NCBI GenBank assembly: GCA_021904315.1
Contig: CM038912.1
Span: 19,789,501 to 19,853,500, forward strand
DNA: 64,000 nucleotides
DNA from: Sphagnum magellanicum
Taxonomy: Eukaryota; Streptophyta; Sphagnopsida; Sphagnales; Sphagnaceae
Direction of reading: 5' to 3'
Both the position numbers and the translations under genes were made by a program. The notes under the pieces are model-generated. The model was given only the letters and a program-made list of their open reading frames with translations. It was not told the origin of the DNA and searched no databases. Of the stretch, positions 18,516 to 41,271 are shown piece after piece (position 1 is the first letter of the stretch; every line of letters starts with the position of its first letter).

Positions 18516-21500
18516 TGTTTGGAGGTTTTTTCCAAGGTTTAATGCAAGGTGTGTGGAATGCGGGCACAACACATAAATCCAAGTTCACATTTGTGTCAAT
18601 ATGCATTACCATCCTTACACACATGTGGTGGAGTGCCACATTTTATTCTAGCATTTGCAAGGGCTATCCATGGATGATAACCATGAATTTTGTCAAATTC
18701 ATGAAGCTAAGATTGAAAATTGGCATCGATATTAGTTGTCCAACTACTTTTCTATTACATAGGGATATTTTTTTTCATCTACTGGTGTAGTTACATCAAA
18801 TTGTCCCTTAGTTGGAACCACAACTCCATCCACAACAATTACCATTATTAGCACTCCTTCCATGAGTGGGCAATAGGTTTTTCCCATTTTTAACCTTATC
18901 GCAAAAAAATTAAGGGAGTTATGAACTAACTATAAAGGAATTAGGACCAAAAAAAAAACATTTTGTAAAAATTTCAACATAGACCCCATGAAAATTTGTG
19001 GGAGGCATATGCTTGGATGCAACAATTGATCAATGCGATTTAGGGGTCATAGAAGCCAAGGAAATCCAATTTTGGTATGGCATTTTGGACAAGGATTCTA
19101 GGTGATGTGTATGAGATATTGTGTTACATTAGTTGACATAATCAACCTTGGTATGAATGTTTCAAGTTTTAAAACACATTGAATTCAACATGATCAAGGA
19201 AATGGTGGTAACCTTTGGTTTCAACTAAGATAATTTGAAGAACTCCTTGGGACCTTTGGGCCATCAAACACATGATTAGCCAACCAAAGTTATATTGTAA
19301 AAAAACAAGGAACCCAAATAGGAATATGGGAATGGTTCCTTGTCACATTCTGCAAAACAAGGGGGAGAAGACAAATGTTGAAGATGTGATGGGTCTCATT
19401 AAAAAAATGATTAACTTAATCCTCTTTAAGCCACTACCACCAAACCTAATCCCAATCACCTTTGTTCTCACTATAAGGTTTAAGGTCATGACACAAACCA
19501 TTGGTTTACAATACACCTTGAACTTCAATAGGGCCAATCCCAAATGAGATATCTAGGGAAATCCCAAGGTTTTTGCAAGGACCAAAAAAGGAAAGGTGTG
19601 GCCAACAAAAGGTCGTTGACCAAACTAAGTTCAAACCATACTATTATTATTGAAACATGATTTGTATGATTGGAAGTTTTGGTGGCAAATATGGCATCCA
19701 ACATGGTGGCACATGCATGTGAAATCCAATTTGCTCAAGTTTCATGGATGTCTTGAAATCAAATAAACACATTTTTTTGGGTTCAAACTCATGATTTTTT
19801 TACGGGGCTGGATTTTTAAGGCCATTGGCCCCAAATGATGACATGTTGGATATTCTTGGGGATCATGTTTCATGGCATAATTAGTGGTGGAAACTTAATC
19901 AAGGTTTCAATAATAGCACTAGTGATTAGGGCAAATGCTTGTGTTGAAACCATGAGGCATTGATGAAAGCTAGTTGGATCATCAACATGGGGAGGCCCAA
20001 TGTTCAGTTTGCCCACCATAACCCTTTGTGTTGGCAAACATCACAACAACACATCCCGGGTTTTACAATTGGTTAATAAAATGAATATTGTTTTTTTTAC
20101 TACAATTGTAACTTCAAGTTCATGTTAATGACTATGTAGTTGTAAAGAACATCAGGGTGCCAAATGACATTATGGTTTTGTGATTGTAGTTGATATCACA
20201 ATTTGATGGTTTTACACAAATATCAAATTTTCAAAAATGTATTTTAATGTATTTTTAATCATCCAAAATTAGGTAATAACAAAATTCCATCGATTCTTGC
20301 AACTTTTGATAAATAATAACAACTTGTGGTCATGTGATGTCGATGAGGCATGCCACATGGAATAAGGTTGACTAGTAGTTGCAACACTTCATGACTTGTG
20401 ACACTAACTTCGCATCATGACTCATGTCATTGATTTGATGAATTAATCTCATTTATTAACTAGTTGAAAATATTGTTGTCCTTTGCAATTAATAATGACG
20501 CGATTTTCCATGTGATGATGACATGGCATACCATTTGGCAACAAGGTGTCACAAATTTTCATTGTAATCCATGATTTTTTGTGACACCATAAGTTTTTTT
20601 GTATCTTGAATTTATGACACCAATATTTATCATGGCATGCCATAATTTTTTGTGTGCCACGAGGTTTTTGAAGTCATGATCATGTGTGTGAATTCACATG
20701 CATGTGCATGCATATTAAACAATATATTATTATTTTGTAATTATGACTACAATATTAATAATCATTTTGAAAAAGGTGACACATAATTCTTTGATTTTTT
20801 AACTACTTAACACACTAACTAGGTTAACATGCCTACTAAGTTAACTTATGTATGTAGGCTATTTAATAAAACTTTAATTTGTAATATAGGCTACTTTATA
20901 AGTTACTTAATTAGACATACGAAATTTACTACATCCAATATGTTTAAATAAACCTAGAATAGGTTACCTTACTAATAGGTTAACTTAAGTAGGCTTGCCT
21001 AGGTTCCTAATTTTAGGTTTCTTACCAAGTTAACATCTATAGTTTTATTACAAGATATTTTATTAAGTCTGTAACCACTTCAAGTTTGTGCAACTAGATG
21101 CGACTATGATGTGATTAAATGCAACATAATTATCCTAGAATTTTTTTAGCCTAAGAATGTTAAAGTTAACATAAGCTAGGTTAATAAGTAGTATAGGTTG
21201 ACAAATTAGTTCATCTTAAATCAACCTAGGGAGGTTTAGGTCTAGGCTAGGTTGGTAGGTAATAGGTAGGTTAATTTGGGTCCACTTAGGGTGGCCAAGG
21301 TTAATTCAAAGCTAGAAAGTTTAAGCTTTATAGCTTTGTGTTAAAAATAATTAGTATGAAAAATGTGGTAGTGCAATCGATGAAGAATTGAACCCCAGAG
21401 TGAAGGTGAAGGGTTCAAGTCTTCATTTTTGTAACCTATGATACCTAGGCCATTTAGCTTAGGTTAGGTAGCTTAGTTTAGATTTTTTGGGCTAAAAATC

Positions 21501-22500
21501 CAATGTTTGTTTTTAATCTAGGCCACTTAGCCTAGGTTAGGTAGTCTAAGTTGCTTAACATAACTTAATTAAGTTAAGTTAAATTGACTATTGGCTAGGT
21601 GAACTAAACTAGGTTGCCTAGCCTAACTAGGTTAGGCTAGGTTGACTTTTGGTTGCACTAGCTACATGGGTTAAATTAGATTGACTTTTAGTCATGTGTA
21701 ATGATTCATAATGTGTTTATAGATTTTTGACACATGTCATCCATCCATCAAAGCATCTTTTGTAACATTTAGTTGAATAAAACGACTAAGTTGAAATGAC
21801 ATGCATTTTACAAGTCATACCAAGGTTAATGATGACATGAAATTTCATTATTATAAAAATAATAATTAAATCATAGACATTAAAATGACTAGGTTTGCGA
21901 TTGAACATCCCTTGCAACTAAATGGGTGAAATGACATGGGTTTAGCAACTCACTAGTCACTAGTCGCATATGTCCTTTTTGTCTAATATGTAGTTGTAAA
22001 AGCTAGTTACAAAACCCAAAATGTGTTGTTATGCATAATTTCCAACCTTATGGGGGTGTTTACTTTTGGTGGTGTATCGGTTATGGCTAAGAGAAAACCT
22101 AGTTCCAACTTTGGAACAAAGGCACTAATTAATTTGTTAAGGGCAACAACGATGGTATGTCAAACATCATTGTTTTCCAACACAATTTTGGTTGTTTTCG
22201 GTTTTCAATTGGTGATAGTGTGTCATTTGGTAACCACATTATGTAAAGATAACATCACAAGGGTGTCAACCAAACTAATTGGTGATTTAGGACTAGTTAT
22301 AACATCTCAAAATGTGAACCCAAAGCCAACCCACCATTTGTTGTGGAAATGCCACCTTAACATGCCCAATAACCAAACTCTAACAAACTTTAAGAATTCC
22401 TAGCATAACCACCCATTGACCAAGCAAGTGTTTTTCTCAATGTGGTCATGGTACATAATGAGGATGGAGGTTTTTTAGTTGAAAGGGTTATTGGGATGAC
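18515..22500. other. Decayed retrotransposon interior with CTAGG-rich insert
   Basis: From 18.5 to about 20.05 kb the DNA looks like stop-riddled element-internal sequence without a domain I can name. From about 20.1 to 22.0 kb it is rich in TAGGTTAGGT/CCTAGG phrases and holds one tRNA-like repeat copy (listed separately); this segment may be an insertion. After about 22.03 kb the sequence again resembles the 5' part of the Ty3/gypsy pol described next. Confidence 0.4.
21362..21450 (+). repeat. tRNA-like (SINE-type) repeat, copy A
   Basis: The copy reads GTGGTAGTGCAATCGATGA, then after about 30 bases GGGTTCAAGTC, then GTAACCTATG. The first part resembles the tRNA internal promoter box A and the second box B, at tRNA-like spacing. 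It is embedded in CTAGG-rich sequence like the other copies. Confidence 0.5.
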
Positions 22501-25500
22501 GTTATTGACTCCAAAGGATTTTATTGGATTCAGTTGTTCAATTTCTGATGTTGGTAAAATGGCAATGGAAGGTATAGGTTTGACCAATGCTAATTTGGAA
22601 CCATGTTCATACAAAATCTTAATGTCAATGGGTGAGTCCAAGAAGGCTTGGGGATTAACTAAACATGAGGTTGTGATCTAGGTTAATCCCACCTAACCGA
22701 CGAACTACACCAAAACACAAGCATGGGTAATGGTTACACATGTTACATCATATGATGTATTGGTTGGAAGGGCAATTTTGTACCCTCTAGGGGTTACCTT
22801 GGACTTTAGGGAAGAAACTGCCCATTATTGACTAGAATGGCAAATAAGAAATAGTTGTAAGGTTTTTTTGCTAATTACTTTCATTAGGGGGCAGGTGCAA
22901 AAATACAACAAGTTAATTATGCTTTTTGAATTTTCAAGGCTTCCCTAAAGGTTTGATTTATTGGAAGGCAACATCCATGATTAGGATAAACCCCCTAATA
23001 TTAAAATGGAGATGTTAAATGCATTTGGGCGTCTAGTCATTTAGGCTTCGCCACTTGATCCCATACCACCATAGGAGACTTTGCCATAGTTGCATGCATT
23101 AATTAAACACTTCATCCTTTAGCTTGGCACACTCTATTGTCATCAAACCCATAATTATTCATGGATCTAGGACTAGAACCACCATGTTTCTAGCCATTGG
23201 ACACCAAGGTTACTTAATGAAATATTCCCACGGATGTGATATGTTTGTTGCAATTTTTTTGAGGGGATTAGTTCAAGCCTTGTTGTGGGTTTTAAATTTA
23301 ACATCAAAGTATAACAATATCATTACATGGAAAACAATACACAAGCTTAATAACATGCCTCCATGCACCACATTATGGTGTTGCAACAACAACATCCTGA
23401 TTTGTTGCCCACATCGACAATTCAAGGTTACCAGTGTTCTTTATTAAGTAACATCACCTTGTTGGGGGTGCATGATTTGGACAAGATAGGACTAGTATAT
23501 CTAATCATTTCAACATGGTCATGTCAAGAGCTATCACAAGCTAACATAGGTCATGGCCTTTTAAACCTCAAATCATGATTTTTTGGGAGCTAATTTGTGT
23601 GTTATAGTATTTGTAAACCATATAAATGCACCCATGTGTATACATGTTGGAGAATGTCCCACCTTTGGGGGATTTTAGCCAACTATGTTGGCAAAATGGC
23701 ACCATATTTGAGTTTGGATTGGGGAGCTAATGTAGGTGAATGCTACATCAATTGGTTCACATTCCCATTGATTTCAATGGATGTGGATTAACCTAACACC
23801 ATTAGAGGTGATTCAAAGTGCATATCAATTTATTCCAAGGTGACCCGGATGTTTGGTGGATGACATATTGGATTTGGACATCATTCATGTGTAGTCCAAT
23901 GTATATGATGACCGACCACCTTTGGTTGTGCTTAATAGAGTTGGGCTTTCACAATAAGCCATACAATTTTTTTTGAATTTTTCACATTCTCATGCATTTT
24001 GGGATGGAAGACCTAAGGTGGTTTAAGATTGCAAAGTCTTTGCACATGGAGGAACCCAATGTAGATGAAAGGATTTGTAGCCATGGGTTTTCACATCAGC
24101 ACCACAATTGTTTGTAGGTGGATTTTGGGGTAGTTCATGAACTTGAACTACCTCACAGGGATATTCAATTTATGTTTAACAAAGTAAAGATGTTTTGCCC
24201 ATTATTCCCTACCCACCCATCTTCCTATTTTTGTTGTTTCACCCACATTTGAAACATTTATGTTGGTGCAAAGGGGGAATTGTCCTTGTTAGTTATAAAA
24301 TTATTTAAAACACCATGAAGGATTTTTAGGTGTTAGGAAATGAGTTGGTCATGTGGGGGCACTACTTCACATTTTGGGCACCCTCCCATGTTCTATATAA
24401 TAATCACATGCAATGCCCTTAACTTTGAGGATTGGGAACAATTCGTCCCCCTAGCCCAAAATGCACATGATTGCAAAGACTTGGGAACTAGATATTGGCC
24501 CAACATTTATAGGAGGTGAAGTGCTGGAAATATGATAGTTATTATAAAGTTATATTGGATGTTTTGCCAACAATTTGAAAGATTTAGGTGAATTGAAAGG
24601 ACAAAAGGTTTGAATTATATTAGAAGATAATAATCCAATTTTCAGGTAACCTTTTTGATTTAACGAGGTGGAGATGGCCTTGATTCAGGCCTAGATAACA
24701 AAATTGTTGGATGTTGGTTTGGTATAATTATGTAGGGGTGAATATGCTTCAACAACAATGATGTTAATAAAAAAAAATCTCTTTGGTAACTAAATGCTAC
24801 ATGTATGATGATTATTGTCTTGTGTATAAACAAACCTAGTTAGACAAATATGCCATGCCCTTGCTAAAAAAGATCTTTTATCCCCTTGGATAGGCTAAGG
24901 TTTTCAATATTTTGGACCTATAATCTAATTACCATCAATCATCATTGAAAGAAGGTGACAAGGTCAAGATGACATTTTGGGAAATTGATATTCATGGGAA
25001 GGATTGTTTGTATAAATTACAAATTTTACCATTTGATTTGAAGAACATCCTTGCAAAATTTCAATAAATTATGGATCGGGTGTTACTAGGTTTTAATTTT
25101 GCCAAATGTCACATTAATGACATCATTGTGTTGAGTTTGACATCTAGGGATCACATGCACTATATGGAAAGGTGTAAAATTTATAGATCGTTACCTTAAG
25201 CTTCACCCAAACAAATGTTAATTCTTTTATACTACTCAAGTGCAATACTTGAGTCATATGATTTATCCATGTGGATTGGGGGTTCAAAAGGCCAAAGTTT
25301 AGGCCATCTCATAGGTTTTCCAACTAACAGATGTTAATTAATTACGAACGTTCTTAAGCTTATGTAATTCTTATCGAAGATTTATCAAAGGGTTTAATAA
25401 CATTACCAAACCTTTGACCCAATTTATGCAACTTGATCAAAATTATGTGTCAGGTGAGGTGGAAAAACAAACCTTTCAAGGGTTGAAGGTTCGGCTATCA

Positions 25501-27330
25501 TTAACCTTTATGTTATAACAACCCATATTAGGATGATTGTTCTAATTACATATTGATTAAAATACTTTAGGGTTGGGAGTTATGCTTATCCAATTTGATA
25601 ATGGTGGTTAAAAGTTTGTCTTGGCATATGTTAATCGATCCAACAATAAAACAAAGGCCAAATACAATTCATATGAGGAGTGCTTGTAATTATTTGAATG
25701 ATTTCATCATTTTGATGTTATTTTGATGGTAGTCCACTCACCTTGGTTATTGATTGCTAACCCTTCAAAAAATTTATGGAATTAAATTAACTCATAAAGA
25801 AAGTTGGCTAGATGGGCATTTATACTACAAAAATATGATTTTGATATAATTAATAGGGTTGGTAAGGTTAATCAAGATGTTGATGGGTGGAGTTGAAATT
25901 TGAGTTCTAACAAGGAGGATACCATTGGGGTTTGGTGGCATGGTGATGTGGATTTGGAAGGAGTACTAAGATGGCATGTTTATGCATACATGTGTACCAT
26001 GTTGGGATGTTCTAGGGAAGTACTTCATGCAATAATGAATAATAGGGATTCACAAGAGGGGGAGATAGAACTAGAAAGTAATGGTATTCAATATATGCAT
26101 GATGATTCATAAATTATTGCATATTTGCAAGTAGGTGAAGTTTGAATTTGATTAACACTCAAGGAATGAGATCGTGTTGTGCATAGAACGAGACAATTCA
26201 AATGGGAAGGTAATTCCCTACTATGGGTGTGGATAGATATATGAGTACAATTAATGCCCAAAACAACATGAAGGCCTTGTATGACATTTTCATGAAGAGT
26301 TGAGTCATATTAAGATTTGACAGACATAATTTGCTCCAAATACATTATTAGTGGTGAGGGATGCAACTACATGTTCCATATTTTATTTCATATAGTGTGT
26401 GATTAAGTTCAAGCATCATTTAATGCACATACATTTCATGTACATCCCTTATCAATTATGGGGCTAAATTATTGATGGAATATGTTTTTTGCAAGCCCAT
26501 TAAGTTCGACACTTCAACATGATCAATATGTTTTGGTCATGATTGAATGTTTTTTCAAGTGGTTACAGTTCATGTCATTGCCAAATTATAGTAATGAAGG
26601 AACTACATATGCATTTTTGGTTAAATGCTTAGAAAGTTTGGTGTTTTAATTGAACTTTTCATTCAACAAGATAAGAAATTTCATGGGAAATATGAAAAGT
26701 TGTGCGTGAAGGCATTGATAAATCATTAGACAACTTCACAAGACCATCCTAAGGTTAACTAAACAAATGGTGAAGACAATGAAGTGAAGACTATGCAAAT
26801 ATAGCCTCCAAAAAGGTCATACTAAAAATTGAAACTTATAATTACCATGGTTGGCCATGGGAAATAAGTTCAATTGACAAGCCCTCATCATTTTCATCAT
26901 ATTTTTTATTGTTCAAGCATGATTACAAACTACCAACCTCCATTTGACATGATGTTATGGCAGTAATGAGTTCGGATGATCTTATAATGTGGTTTTAGGC
27001 ATGTGAACAAAGAACAATTTTATTCATAGATGTGATGCCAATGATTATGGAAATTTTAACAATTGTTCAACACCAAAATATTTTTCAATATGCCACAATT
27101 TGTGGTGGTGGTTATTAGGTTTGAATTTGTAGGTTCAAATTTGGAGATTTTGTGTACCTATATAATAAACAATATCAACTATTTTGGATGTGATTGCAAG
27201 ACATTTTATTCTATGTGTAAAATGTTCTTTTTTTAACAATGTTGTTAAAGGGTTGAAAGGATCATATGGAAAGATCACATGAATAATTGTGCGCCATGTC
27301 ATCTTACACATGTGGATGGTCATATTAACC
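22020..27330 (+). mobile_element. Degenerate Ty3/gypsy retrotransposon carrying a cytosine-5 methyltransferase domain
   Basis: Reading across frames and stops, pol-like domains occur in the order protease, DNA methyltransferase, reverse transcriptase, RNase H, integrase. Protease: LLDS at about 22520 (the active-site glycine is replaced by valine) and SYDVLVGRAILYPLGVTLDF at about 22745-22805. Methyltransferase: about 23220-24110 (separate entry). Reverse transcriptase: DKYAMPL-like start at about 24845, NYHQSSLKEGDKVKMTFW at about 24930, PFDLKN at about 25030, MDRVLLGFNFAKCHINDIIV at about 25070-25130 with the YIDD box changed to HIND. RNase H and its tail: about 25240-25895, ending LARWAFILQKYDFDII. 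Integrase core: about 26480-26800. Stops lie mostly where CAA, CAG or CGA are expected, consistent with CpG/CHG methylation decay. The element is dead; LTR ends are not identified with certainty. Confidence 0.85.
23220..24110 (+). pseudogene. DNA cytosine-5 methyltransferase domain inside the retrotransposon
   Basis: Three frames together show the ordered motifs of a C5 cytosine methyltransferase. HDLDKIGLVYLIISTWSCQE at about 23471-23530 matches motif IV: the catalytic Cys of the Pro-Cys pair is kept, while Pro reads as Ser through one C-to-T change. The following 'LSQANIGHGL' fits the S-x-A-x-x-G-x-G-L stretch after the catalytic loop. MLENVPPLGD at 23644-23673 matches motif VI (Glu-Asn-Val). 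EEPNVDERICSHGF near 24049-24090 matches the conserved late Glu-x-x-Arg-x-x-G-F segment. A glycine-poor remnant of motif I is seen near 23240-23290. The domain lies between retroviral-type protease and reverse transcriptase on the same strand, so it was part of the element's polyprotein, not a host gene. Several frame breaks and stops make it non-functional. Confidence 0.75.
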
Positions 27331-29220
27331 TTTTTTGGTTGTTGTTCTTGCTAAATTTTGTTGTATGTTGTGTGAACAAGCCATAAGGGCTACCATCATG
27401 TTGATTTGTGATTAGTGTTCATGAGGTTGGCATATGGGATGTTTAACACCATCATTGTACAAGATATTAGTCAGCAAATGGTTTTGTCTTCAATATACCA
27501 AACAAACTTAAGATTTTATTCTTGTAATTAGATGATAAGAAATGCCCTAAGTTTTTCTCCAATAGGACACCCATTTGGTTAAGGATTTTGGGGATTATAG
27601 TTAGATGACTAGCAATGGGGCTTTGATTTGCACAAAGCCTATTGATCTTCTCACCTTAAAATTGATGTATTTATTTTTAAAAAACGTTCTACTAAGTTTT
27701 TCATGCAACTATTGAACTTTGAAGGACCTTAGCCCCAAATAAGGGGACAATTTGGATAAGATACATCAGATTGTTGAAGCTACCATCACATTATGCATTT
27801 GAAAACCCTTCATTTAAGGGTCAGATTTAATTTAAAGAATTAAAAGAAAGTTAGATAAATGATAACCATTTTTCCATATTTTAACAATGGAAAAACCATT
27901 CAACAACATTTGATGGTGCTTAAGATAAGCCTCTACCAACGTTGAAAAGAAACAAACAACTAGATCCAACAAGGTGCAATTATCTTCGTTTCGCATGAGG
28001 AAATGCTAAGTCTAATTAAATACAAAGTTGAAGGCTTGACTTCAACTAAGAGGAGTAACATGGGGGCTTCAATCAAAATCCCATAATGTTAATGAATATG
28101 TCAATGATGTCATTGGCATTTTTTTAAACTTGAAAAGCCTGTCATGACCTTGACTTTGGACTTGTGACTAAAGCTAGAGCAAGACAAACAATTAGAGTCA
28201 AAAACAATGCCAAAACATGACATGTTCAAACACACTTCCAAGATGAGGTGAGTTGGAAATGTGTGAAAGTCCAAAGGAGGATTCCAACACTTGCAAATGC
28301 ATTCCCACTTTGAAAGTTTGGAATCCCATTCCCTCCACTACTACATCGTTGAGCAATGGCATGTTATGACTTTCCATTGTGTACAAAGTACATGTCAAGT
28401 TTGCAGAACAACTTGAATCATGAATGCTAAAAACCCCTTGAGGTTTGTCGAAAGACACTTTTCTATTTTCTCTCTCATTCTTTGAAGTTTTTGTGAATGA
28501 TGAAGATAAGAGTTCCCGAGCACTTGGAGATGAAATAAAAGAAGCAAGATGGAAATATGGATATGCATCAAAACCCTTTTACATTGGTACAAATGTGTAG
28601 CAACTTGGAATGCCACCACATGGGGCTAACAACCACCAAGAGCTCTCACCCCATTGTCATGTTCACTACTTCTTCGTCAACGTCAATACAGTTTCCATGA
28701 TTCTTGAAGCAGTTTCTCACCTTAAGAGCTAGAAAAAACTACCCAAATGCAAAACTGAAAATGAGAACACAAAAGCTTCTTTTTGAAACTAGGGAAAGAG
28801 GTGTCACCTAGTCCCAAAAATGGTAGGGTGCCATCAGTAACTAGAAGTTGTCTATGTTTTGTTGCAGGCTGTCACCACCACAATCACAATTGCCGCATTC
28901 TGTGACCCCAATAGCCATACCATGAAATCAAGTTCAAAACACAAAGAGATCGTGGATGTATCAAAAAGCCAGATTCCAAGGTCGCCACAAGGACCACCAA
29001 GAATCCAATTGTGCCTCTAACGTCATGTGATCCATAAAATTCCTTAACATCCCAACCTTCCATGACCCAAATGCAACAACCCCCTACTCTCAATCGCTCA
29101 GCAAGCAACTCTCAAGTTTGGATTGAAATTATTGCATTTTGGGATGATAAAAGATTTCATCAAAAATGGTGGTGTTGAAAAACACCATTTGCATAATTCA
29201 AACAAGAAGCTTTGTTTCGG
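27330..29220. other. Element remnants and 3' flank of histone H1 copy A
   Basis: 27.33-28.1 kb continues the CpG-poor repeat DNA, including a GGGGACAATTTGG phrase near 27745 that could be a polypurine tract. From about 28.2 kb the composition is more balanced, and 29.1-29.22 kb should include the 3' untranslated region of H1 copy A. Minus-strand frames at 28198-28620 have no recognisable domain and no supporting context, so no gene is called. Confidence 0.4.
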
Positions 29221-29224
29221 TACC

Positions 29225-30304
29225 TCACTTCTTTGCTTTCTTTGCTGGAGATGGGCCCCCTGTCTTGCTTCTTTTACCAGGCTTTCCAACTTTTGCTGGC
29301 TTGGACTTTGCTGCTTTCACTGATTTTGTCAACTTCTTTGGGGTTACAACTTTCTTTGAAGGAGTCTTTCTCACAGCAGCAGGTTTCCTTGCTGAAGATG
29401 AGGCAGCCTTTCTTGCAGGAGCAACCTTCTCTTCAGTTTTCTTGGTTGCTGGAGCAGGCGCCTTGCGTACCTTCACAGCAGCTTTCGGAGACTTGGGTGA
29501 CTTTGTGTCTGGTTTTGAGGATACCTTTGATACTTTTGTGGTCTTCACTGGCTTAGCAGCTGTGACTGTCTTGGGAGATTTTGTTGAAGCAGCTCCATTT
29601 GCCAGCTTGGACTTTGCAGGTTTCTTTGCTGTTTTGGTAGTTGTAGTAGTAGTAGCCTTGGGAGCTTTGGTCGCCTCCTTTGTCACCTCCTTCGTCCCAG
29701 CAGCAGCTGGTGTGGGCAGCTTGGGAGCTTTTGTTGGCTTCTTGAGTTCATCTGAAAGCTTAAAAGAGTTCTTAACCTTGTACACCTTGCCCTGCTTTGT
29801 CAAGTTCCGAAGCTGGACCGACAAAATCTTCTTGAAATTTGGAGGCAACCCTGTCTTGTAAATGTCCTCAAGATACTTGGCAATCGCATACTGGCTCGAT
29901 CCTGTTCGCTCCTTCAAAGTCCCAATCGCATCCTTCACCATCTAGAGAAAGAAGAAAGAAACCCCCCACCAAAAAAAAAAAAAAACAGCACCCAACACAG
30001 CATGCATGTTAGATACCAACCAATCCCACCATTGCATGTCTGTTCTGCTGCGTAAATCTAAAGCCAATTTCAAAGGTTGTGTTGCATCAATCAATGTTGA
30101 AGAGGAGAAGGAAGATGCATAAGCTGAGAGAACCCATGGTTTCAAAAAGCAGAAAGATGGAAGGGAGAAGTTGGTGCATACCAACAGGTAAGAGGGATGA
30201 GCCAGGGGCACACTGGCAGACTTGGTAGTCTTGGGTTTCTTCTTCTCCTTGGTAAGTTTCGCCTTCTTTTCTTTGGAGGATTTCTCGGGCTTGTCAGCAG
30301 CCAT
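29225..30304 (-). CDS. H1: Linker histone H1, copy A
   Basis: Two exons, 30304-30182 (41 codons) and 29941-29225 (238 codons plus TGA), with a 240-nt intron (TTG|GTATGC donor, TTCTCTAG|ATG acceptor); 279 residues in all. Linker histones bind the nucleosome dyad and linker DNA and compact chromatin in the nucleus. The order is a short Lys/Glu-rich N-tail, the H15 globular domain starting at HPSYLL (residues 36-41) and running over the junction through MVKDAIGTLKERTGSSQYAI to YKVKNSFKLSDE (about residue 110), then a long Lys/Ala/Pro-rich tail. The tail has several S/TPxK-type CDK sites (KSPK, TPKK, SPAKK) and ends GPSPAKKAKK. The intron interrupts the globular domain just after HPSYLL, as in plant H1 genes. 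The ATG at 30304 is the only one giving the tail plus globular domain. The paralogue at 55.8-58.1 kb differs at 8 of about 74 residues in the exon 2 part of the globular domain. The gene appears intact. Confidence 0.96.
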
Positions 30305-39850: not shown

Positions 39851-41271
39851 GTGATGTTTCCTAAATTTTACAATGCAATAGTTGCATTATAGAAGGTTAT
39901 GACTTATGCATTCTTTAACCTTTTGCACAAATTTATGTCAGTGTTTATTGATGATTTGAGCACCCAAACATCCAAGGTCGATGATATTGCCATGTTAAGG
40001 TTATGTTTTGATCAATGTCATTGCGTTGTTATGACATAACTTTACATCCAAAAATAATCCATCTGATTGTAGAACATGGTGTTTTGCTTTTATGTGATGT
40101 CGAAGGAAGGTAAGGAGCTTGATTTAGAAAAGATAAAGGTCATTGTGAGGCTTCAACTCCCAAGTGATATAAAAGGCACGTATAGAATCTTTGGCTACAT
40201 TGGATGGTATAGGCACATTATGCATGATTATGCAAATGCAATGAATCCTTTGACCAATCTCACAAAGAAAGGTGTCACTTACAATTGAACCTTTGAATGT
40301 CAAAAAGGTTTGTGTGCTTTGAAGGCCTAATTGAAAAGTTATTTTTGTTTCACTCTTCCCAAAGGGGATTTGCCTTTCCATGTCCATTGTATGTCTCAAA
40401 TGTTGTAGTAGGTAATGTGTAATGTCATCCTATTGGTGAAAACCATAGGGATTATGTTGGTGCCTTTTTTAGTAAACAATTCATTATTACTAATAAAAAA
40501 TATTCCACCACTAAACATGAATTTTTACCATGGTTTTCAATCTTTAAAGAATTCAACATTATTTGTTGTTGAATCCAATAGTTTTTTTTCTTGATCACAT
40601 CACCTTTAAGTATTTGGTGAACACGCTTAATTTTAATGGTAGGCTAGTTTGTTGGATCCTTCTTTTGGATGAATTTGATTACATGATGGAATCACAACAA
40701 GATATTTTTAATTCTATGATTCCATATATGACTAATTTTGTAGCGATATCGAACATTATATTACTAAAGGCCCTTAGTTGTAATGGACAAGTACTAAGGA
40801 CAAGAAATCATTGAGTGTTCAATGTGGCACTTTTCATCCTATAATCATTAAGGACAAGTCCTAACGATACTACAAAAACAAATTGTTTTAAATAGAAAAT
40901 CTAATCAAGAATTTGGACATGTGTAAAAAATACCATCTTACCAATATGGACAAGTCAATTTAGACTTATCCTACATGACTAAGGTGGTCATTTTGACTAA
41001 TAGACTATTGGATTATTTGACTGGTCATTTTGATTATATTGGATAATGAACCATTTGACTAGTCAAATTTCTATCCAATTTTTTTTCTAGATTATTACCC
41101 CAAAAAAATTGTGTAGGTAGGTCTAGGTAGGTAGGTTGTATATTGGTTTAGGTAGGTTGTAAAAAAATAAGTAAATAGGTGGTAACCTACCTAGCTTAAC
41201 CTAGATTATCTAACCTTTTAATTTAACCTAATATAACCTAACATACCTACCCTAAACCTTTAAACATGTAT

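Follow-up and report, generated by a model that had tools for sequence, protein, structure and literature searches.

The stretch analysed here, which we call the window, comprises 64,000 nucleotides of the peat moss Sphagnum magellanicum (G000:C6:19789501-19853500; contig CM038912.1). Judged from its sequence, the plus strand almost certainly carries at 18643-27505 a dead copy of an old green-plant Ty3/gypsy retrotransposon family whose Pol polyprotein includes a DNMT3-type DNA methyltransferase. Remnants of gag, protease, C5 cytosine methyltransferase, reverse transcriptase (RT), RNase H, integrase and a C-terminal PHD finger lie in colinear order on that strand. Relatives were searched for in the same 439-Mb genome, and two families of them are used below: family A (L009-L018 and L024), with the methyltransferase motifs ECQ and ENT, and family B (L019-L021), with PCQ and ENV, which is the window copy's own family. 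The methyltransferases of open copies of the two families are about 41-43% identical.

Detection of the methyltransferase in the decayed copy

Matches in the window were obtained by tblastn with same-genome relatives as queries (database size 64000, combined E-values). With family B, the methyltransferase remnant was found at 23225-24029 on the plus strand in two pieces, 23225-23584 and 23616-24029 (combined E 2.4e-32), and it can be read by eye across three frames. The Cys-Gln and ENV letters are preserved despite many stops: the catalytic Cys-Gln of motif IV lies within 23519-23545, where the preceding Pro now reads Ser, and the alignment places the ENV of motif VI at 23650-23673 and the motif VIII region at 23757-23795. 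Two late motifs follow on the same strand within 24049-24160, EEPNVDER (24049-24072) and NLNYLTG (24140-24160), which we paired by eye with EPNADERERAMGF and AMDLNCL of L019.

The decayed letters by themselves gave a different result. Pfam found no DNA_methylase match in the three plus frames with stops written as X, in which RNase H was the sole domain found, or in read-through or single-frame pieces of the window methyltransferase. The read-through had no match in the PDB, and no methyltransferase match was found among 5.8 billion proteins. The first-pass annotation, which had been made from the letters of the window, had itself named the lack of a DNA_methylase profile match at 23.2-24.1 kb as evidence that would tell against it, and taken alone this outcome does so. 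The methyltransferase is identified here because its same-genome relatives match, the decayed sequence alone having given nothing. These blank searches of Pfam, the PDB and the protein databases are also what one would cite in favour of the motifs being accidental words in decayed DNA beside a gypsy remnant. That explanation has next to no probability in our judgement, since the match to methyltransferases of the same genome is colinear (combined E 2e-32, against at most 27 bits in shuffles) and open relatives have a methyltransferase in the same place and order. From protease to PHD, the best alignment of each piece scored 63-249 bits; the same five queries scored at best 23-27 bits on 30 dinucleotide-preserving shuffles of 21001-28500.

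The remaining domains were located in the same way. The aspartic protease remnant, of the gag-asp_proteas type, lies at 22550-22843 (the family-B query gave E 7e-13 and the family-A query 2e-6), and the RT remnant at 24476-25458 (combined E 5.9e-66). RNase H, at 25456-25836, was recognized by Pfam in one frame with stops as X (RT_RNaseH_2, E 2.8e-9; RT_RNaseH, E 4.5e-8). A query spanning RNase H, integrase and PHD aligned at 25465-26883 and 26885-27505 (combined E 4.8e-97), which puts the integrase remnant at about 25840-27330; its counterpart in L009, L010 and L012 is called Integrase_H2C2 plus rve by Pfam. The PHD finger remnant at the C-terminus of pol (27359-27505) is covered by an alignment that extends to residue 713, the last of the L019 open reading frame, and the PHD domain called by Pfam in L009 and L010 backs this reading. 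All of these features are on the plus strand, and the first-pass reading of protease, C5 methyltransferase with its catalytic Cys region and ENV, RT, RNase H and integrase in one order holds up. Its extent of 22020-27330 was too short for the element, whose gag remnant lies at 18643-19207 and whose PHD finger reaches 27505.

The gag remnant (18643-18975 and 19043-19207, plus strand) was found with the gag open reading frame of L019 at 40 bits (combined E 2e-10) and is positioned outside the shuffled stretch. By tblastn coordinates, the gap between gag and protease is about 2.1 kb larger than in L019. A repeat-pair search found imperfect 40-nt terminal inverted repeats, 70% complementary, at 20042-20081 and 21994-22033, and because of these an insert of about 2 kb (20042-22033) likely splits the element. 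The insert is AT-rich and possibly an old DNA transposon. Between the insert and the protease, a short, weak match to the end of gag and the start of pol (22137-22256, plus strand) had E 0.03 alone and a combined E of 2e-16 when joined with the protease match (L003 open reading frame as query). No terminal repeats of the window copy were detected in a search that scored within the range of 30 shuffles.

Relatives in the same genome

The Pfam family PF00145 had at least 124 matches in the genome at E 0.001 or better, host genes included, and several of them sit inside open frames of 1000-2379 amino acids. The family-B methyltransferase query found at least 125 related places (126 matches listed, with the best 125 of 1109 candidates scored, so that these counts are lower bounds). 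Pfam read the polyproteins of L009 and L010 as gag-asp_proteas, DNA_methylase, RVT_1, RNase H, Integrase_H2C2, rve and PHD, and that of L012 in the same order without PHD, its frame stopping before that domain. The order from protease to rve is therefore shared by all three polyproteins scanned.

We also approached the family from its RT. Among the best 117 of 4113 candidates that were scored and listed with the family-B RT, 84 have a listed methyltransferase 0.2-1.5 kb upstream. From the remaining 33 places we sampled 14, of which 12 have a methyltransferase match (two of them partial or weak) and two have none. Because of these counts, we regard the methyltransferase as a near-constant part of this RT lineage and not a chance neighbour. 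The first-pass annotation had looked to other copies for the same domain order and to copies lacking the methyltransferase for its refutation; open-frame relatives do place the domain between protease and RT, and copies without it proved to be exceptions.

The RT of L019 has Ty3 RT as its best match in the PDB (4ol8, E 1.9e-51). Membership of the window element in Ty3/gypsy follows from this nearness of a relative's RT to Ty3, from the homology of the window RT, and from the position of the integrase after RNase H. In the three polyproteins, no chromodomain was found at E 0.01 (two have a C-terminal PHD finger and the frame of the third ends earlier), and no domain of the tyrosine recombinase family was found at the same threshold.

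Nature of the methyltransferase

By sequence and predicted fold, the methyltransferase domain is DNMT3-like. P0003, a protein of the family-B clade, has 29 PDB matches at E 0.01, every one of them DNMT3A, 3B or 3C. A profile built from 18 such proteins reached E 4e-23 against DNMT3A, 9e-9 against DRM-type plant enzymes and 2e-7 against HaeIII. The AlphaFold2 model of P0003 has a mean predicted local distance difference test score (pLDDT) of 68.6, with 142 of 472 residues below 50 and most core blocks at 80-93; in a Foldseek search with this model, all 50 matches listed, out of 186 at E 0.001 or better, are DNMT3 entries. The motifs of L019 follow the unrearranged order I-IV-VI-VIII-IX-X, and motifs IV, VI, VIII and later ones can be followed in the window. 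This is the ordinary type of order, unlike that of DRM.

The residues of the active site are widely kept among 109 aligned domains: the catalytic Cys in 104 (four gaps and one Tyr make up the rest), the Glu of motif VI in 103, and the first Arg of motif VIII in 101. Motifs IV and VI show two main combinations, PCQ/ENV in 49 rows and ECQ/ENT in 24, with ECQ/ENV in four and PCQ/ENT in one. A putative link between P or E in motif IV and V or T in motif VI is strong by counts; it stays tentative because on the tree described below it comes down to two independent pairs, on starred branches.

Occurrence in other organisms

Relatives of the methyltransferase were found in liverworts, in Sphagnum and Closterium, and among chlorophyte algae. 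At E 0.001, the family-B domain matched at least 81 database proteins (the best 7998 candidates by shared words were scored) and the family-A domain 32, and precomputed Pfam domains of retroelements accompany 22 of the 81 and 31 of the 32. The named hosts are Marchantia polymorpha, Calypogeia fissa, Sphagnum troendelagicum, S. jensenii, Closterium, Monoraphidium neglectum and Haematococcus lacustris; the host of one further match we take from its gene tag to be Chromochloris. No Klebsormidium name appears among the protein matches listed for either family at that threshold. Two Marchantia-named proteins, P0008 and P0030, combine a DNA_methylase domain with an RT domain. Among the 81 family-B matches, the last four resemble bacterial enzymes, one of them named Mesorhizobium. 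Viral contigs also yielded 21 loci with distant DNA methylases, whose best segments are 26-42% identical.

A quick tree was computed from 99 rows, after 17 of 112 domain rows had been dropped as duplicates or patchy gene models and rows for DNMT3A, for bacterial enzymes and for the window copy had been included. The window methyltransferase falls in a clade of 15 rows with its own family B, Calypogeia and Marchantia, with a Shimodaira-Hasegawa-like approximate likelihood ratio test (SH-aLRT) value of 96; its row has a long branch (1.38) and an odd letter composition. With that reservation, the expectation of the first-pass annotation that the window domain branches with element-borne methyltransferases is borne out. 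Its larger proposal, a land-plant lineage of Ty3/gypsy elements with a methyltransferase between protease and RT, is supported by the open moss frames and by the liverwort proteins carrying the same domain. One row of the retrotransposon clade, P0015, is named as coming from a Candidatus Obscuribacterales metagenome-assembled genome; this "bacterial" methyltransferase is probably eukaryotic DNA in a metagenome bin.

Ends, repeats and integration

Both ends were inspected in 19 copies, 17 of which had both. All 17 start with TGTCATG, and 16 end with CAYGACA (L014 ends with CACAACA). Full copies have the arrangement A1-coding-B1-GC-A2-B2; there are six of them (L010, L011, L012, L014, L015 and L019, with L011 counted as full as B1 and the start of A2 sit in L011 itself), and all six are flanked by an exact 4-bp target duplication. 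The other 11 copies have the short form A1-coding-B1, with an exact 4-bp duplication in nine, three of four letters in one and two of four in one. Exact duplications are thus present in 15 of the 17 copies. DIRS/PAT elements have a tyrosine recombinase and are not known to make target duplications; the moss elements differ from them on both counts. The duplications point to a DDE integrase as the inserting enzyme, and no tyrosine recombinase was seen in the three polyproteins scanned. In four copies measured, A1 and A2 are 98.6-99.0% identical, and these insertions therefore appear to be recent.

In the two copies inspected for it, L012 and L019, a G-run immediately precedes B1, and the junction CACGACA-GC-TGTCATG is present. 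The short copies could be direct integration products, formed when a circle with one repeat is cut at its internal B-GC-A junction. The exact duplications at the A and B ends of nine short copies fit this origin, and the G-run and junction suggest that B-GC-A is treated as a terminal repeat in reverse transcription. On the other hand, recombination between the direct repeats B1 and B2 of a full copy would yield the identical structure, and none of the 17 copies has the mirror form A-B-A-coding-B, which should arise if a circle with two repeats could be cut at either of its junctions. We hold direct integration to be possible, at somewhat less than an even chance. A model in which a two-repeat circle is cut at either junction was rejected, as it predicts that left-duplicated form.

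Selection and sequence decay

In family A, the ratio of nonsynonymous to synonymous substitution rates (Ka/Ks) of the methyltransferase domain was below 0.5 in 44 of 45 pairs among ten copies, and 0.61 in the remaining one; L015, in which a stop splits the domain, was excluded. Between the two groups of family B, Ka/Ks was 0.13-0.24 with Ks near saturation. The pairs in these comparisons, and in those within family B given below, are not independent of one another.

The window element has a CpG observed/expected (o/e) ratio of 0.16. At 22137-27505, CWG is depleted as strongly (o/e 0.16), with 0.8-1.7 in open copies of the methyltransferase-bearing elements. Joint loss of CpG and CWG in a dead copy is what prolonged methylation of CG and CHG sites would be expected to leave. 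Near-identical copia clusters with open frames of about 1362 amino acids were noticed on many contigs (for example C9:8673884-8794455 and C19:7494503-7568461); they resemble the RLC5 centromere clusters described for Sphagnum (PMC9946827). In L053, which comes from such a cluster, and in L046, the CWG o/e is merely 0.26-0.27.

Two further features of the window were noted. Just downstream of the element, at 29225-29941 on the minus strand, an open frame resembling linker histone H1, its long tail rich in Lys, Ala and Pro, can be read by eye. A second, fainter gypsy-type trace of RT and RNase H lies at 39932-40682; its RT matched family A at E 3e-5 and family B at E 0.004, and its RNase H matched at E 9e-4.

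Comparison with known elements

The closest known element, by its published description, is KnitGypsy-Dnmt3 of the alga Klebsormidium nitens, a gypsy Pol with an unrearranged Dnmt3-class methyltransferase whose domain is under purifying selection (de Mendoza et al. 2018, PMC5890265). The moss relatives likewise have a Dnmt3-class domain inside a gypsy Pol, as does the window copy by homology, and the DIRS-style A-coding-B-A-B arrangement described for the algal element is present in 6 of 17 moss copies, the other 11 being A-coding-B. Low Ka/Ks in family A parallels the selection on the algal domain; in family B it is low only between groups. The moss elements differ in their hosts, which are moss and, by homology, liverworts and chlorophytes; in the PHD finger, a word absent from the main text of PMC5890265; and in the 4-bp target duplications, the second form A-coding-B and the ECQ/ENT motifs of family A. 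SymbioDIRS-Dnmt3 of Symbiodinium, described in the same paper, is similar in its split repeats and in the Dnmt3-class domain in Pol, but it is a DIRS element with a tyrosine recombinase, whereas the moss elements have a DDE integrase (rve) and target duplications. Both SymbioDIRS DNMTs that were tested methylated CG sites de novo in yeast (PMC5890265).

The catalytic domain of DNMT3A and DNMT3B resembles the moss domain in fold, motif order and best sequence matches, but the latter is embedded in a retrotransposon polyprotein and is 20-22% identical in the Foldseek alignments listed. REM1 of Chlamydomonas has similar split repeats. It is also a green-algal Ty3/gypsy element, but PMC2774666 describes it as a chromovirus with a truncated, reversed integrase, and the word methyltransferase is absent from the main text of that paper.

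DNA-methylase transposons have been said not to be present in land plants, such as tracheophytes (PMC6338049), and DNMT3 in retrotransposons of streptophytes and dinoflagellates has been mentioned (PMC12344493). Among the titles and abstract beginnings listed by searches of the open-licence literature, we found no report of DNMT-bearing retrotransposons in bryophytes, and in the parts consulted of PMC12344493, PMC10538959, PMC9033089 and PMC8616336 no bryophyte members are reported either. What is new here is the land-plant members, the PHD finger and the 4-bp target duplications, which are exact in 15 of the 17 copies.

Possible function of the methyltransferase

Overall, the findings are very probably best explained by a Ty3/gypsy family that carries a DNMT3-type enzyme, with a proposed role in self-marking, between protease and RT and a PHD finger behind the integrase. 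As for that role, the polyprotein context and the conservation of the domain suggest that the enzyme most likely performs de novo methylation of the element's own complementary DNA (cDNA) or new insertion. It would travel with the pre-integration complex and methylate CG sites of that DNA, so that the element would enter chromatin pre-marked and escape recognition, recombination or harm to the host. Chromodomains tether integration in chromoviruses, and the PHD finger may similarly guide insertion by holding on to the tails of histone H3. We propose tentatively, and at less than even odds, that the main target of the enzyme is the element itself.

Several observations weigh against a self-marking enzyme. 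Pro of motif IV is replaced by Glu in 35 of the 109 aligned rows (those of family A plus 25 among the remaining 99), a change that could weaken or alter catalysis. Within family B, Ka/Ks was 0.27-1.03 among four near-identical copies (six pairs) and 0.37-0.83 among six older copies (15 pairs), so that by this measure neither group has a sign of recent selection. KnitGypsy-Dnmt3 gave no methylation in yeast, a result its authors call inconclusive (PMC5890265). We also considered and rejected CpG depletion as a signature of self-methylation: its mean o/e was 0.34 in 10 family-A copies and 0.31 in eight DNMT-free copies used as control, which were copia and not gypsy elements (Mann-Whitney p 0.08). 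CpG loss is therefore general here, and it is no evidence of self-methylation because the copia control is similar; the strong CpG decay pointed out in the first-pass annotation is real, and its use as a sign of self-methylation is not supported.

The methyltransferase might instead be a passenger, or might hold transposition back to the advantage of the host and persist as self-damping elements do less harm. Cytosine methylation silences transposons in plants, which fits a restraint, and host benefit is one option raised in the Discussion of PMC5890265. The low Ka/Ks of family A and the spread through green algae and bryophytes fit a benefit to the element equally well or better, and we judge a host-serving role unlikely. 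Modification of RNA, either that of the element or its primer tRNA, would accord with the ECQ/ENT pair, which is present in 24 of the 109 rows, family A among them, and departs from the usual PCQ/ENV; family B retains the usual pair, and both profile and fold place the domain nearest to DNMT3A and 3B, which act on DNA, and not to tRNA methyltransferases. An RNA substrate accordingly seems more improbable still than a host-serving role.

Origin and significance

The Klebsormidium case was treated in PMC5890265 as an acquisition within that lineage. That homologues exist in peat moss and liverworts as well as in Closterium and chlorophytes suggests that the origin is older or that the elements spread from host to host. 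A gypsy lineage may have captured DNMT3 a single time, early in green-plant evolution close to the base of the group, and retained it as a core enzyme of its replication, Klebsormidium being one twig and not an independent capture; this we regard as conceivable, with the balance of probability rather against it. If true, then together with the PHD reader and the split-repeat integration, it would mean that the element writes and reads epigenetic marks for itself. Land plants do have DNMT-carrying retrotransposons, bryophytes in number, and the copies with open frames make the role of a self-carried methyltransferase in the life of a retrotransposon testable.

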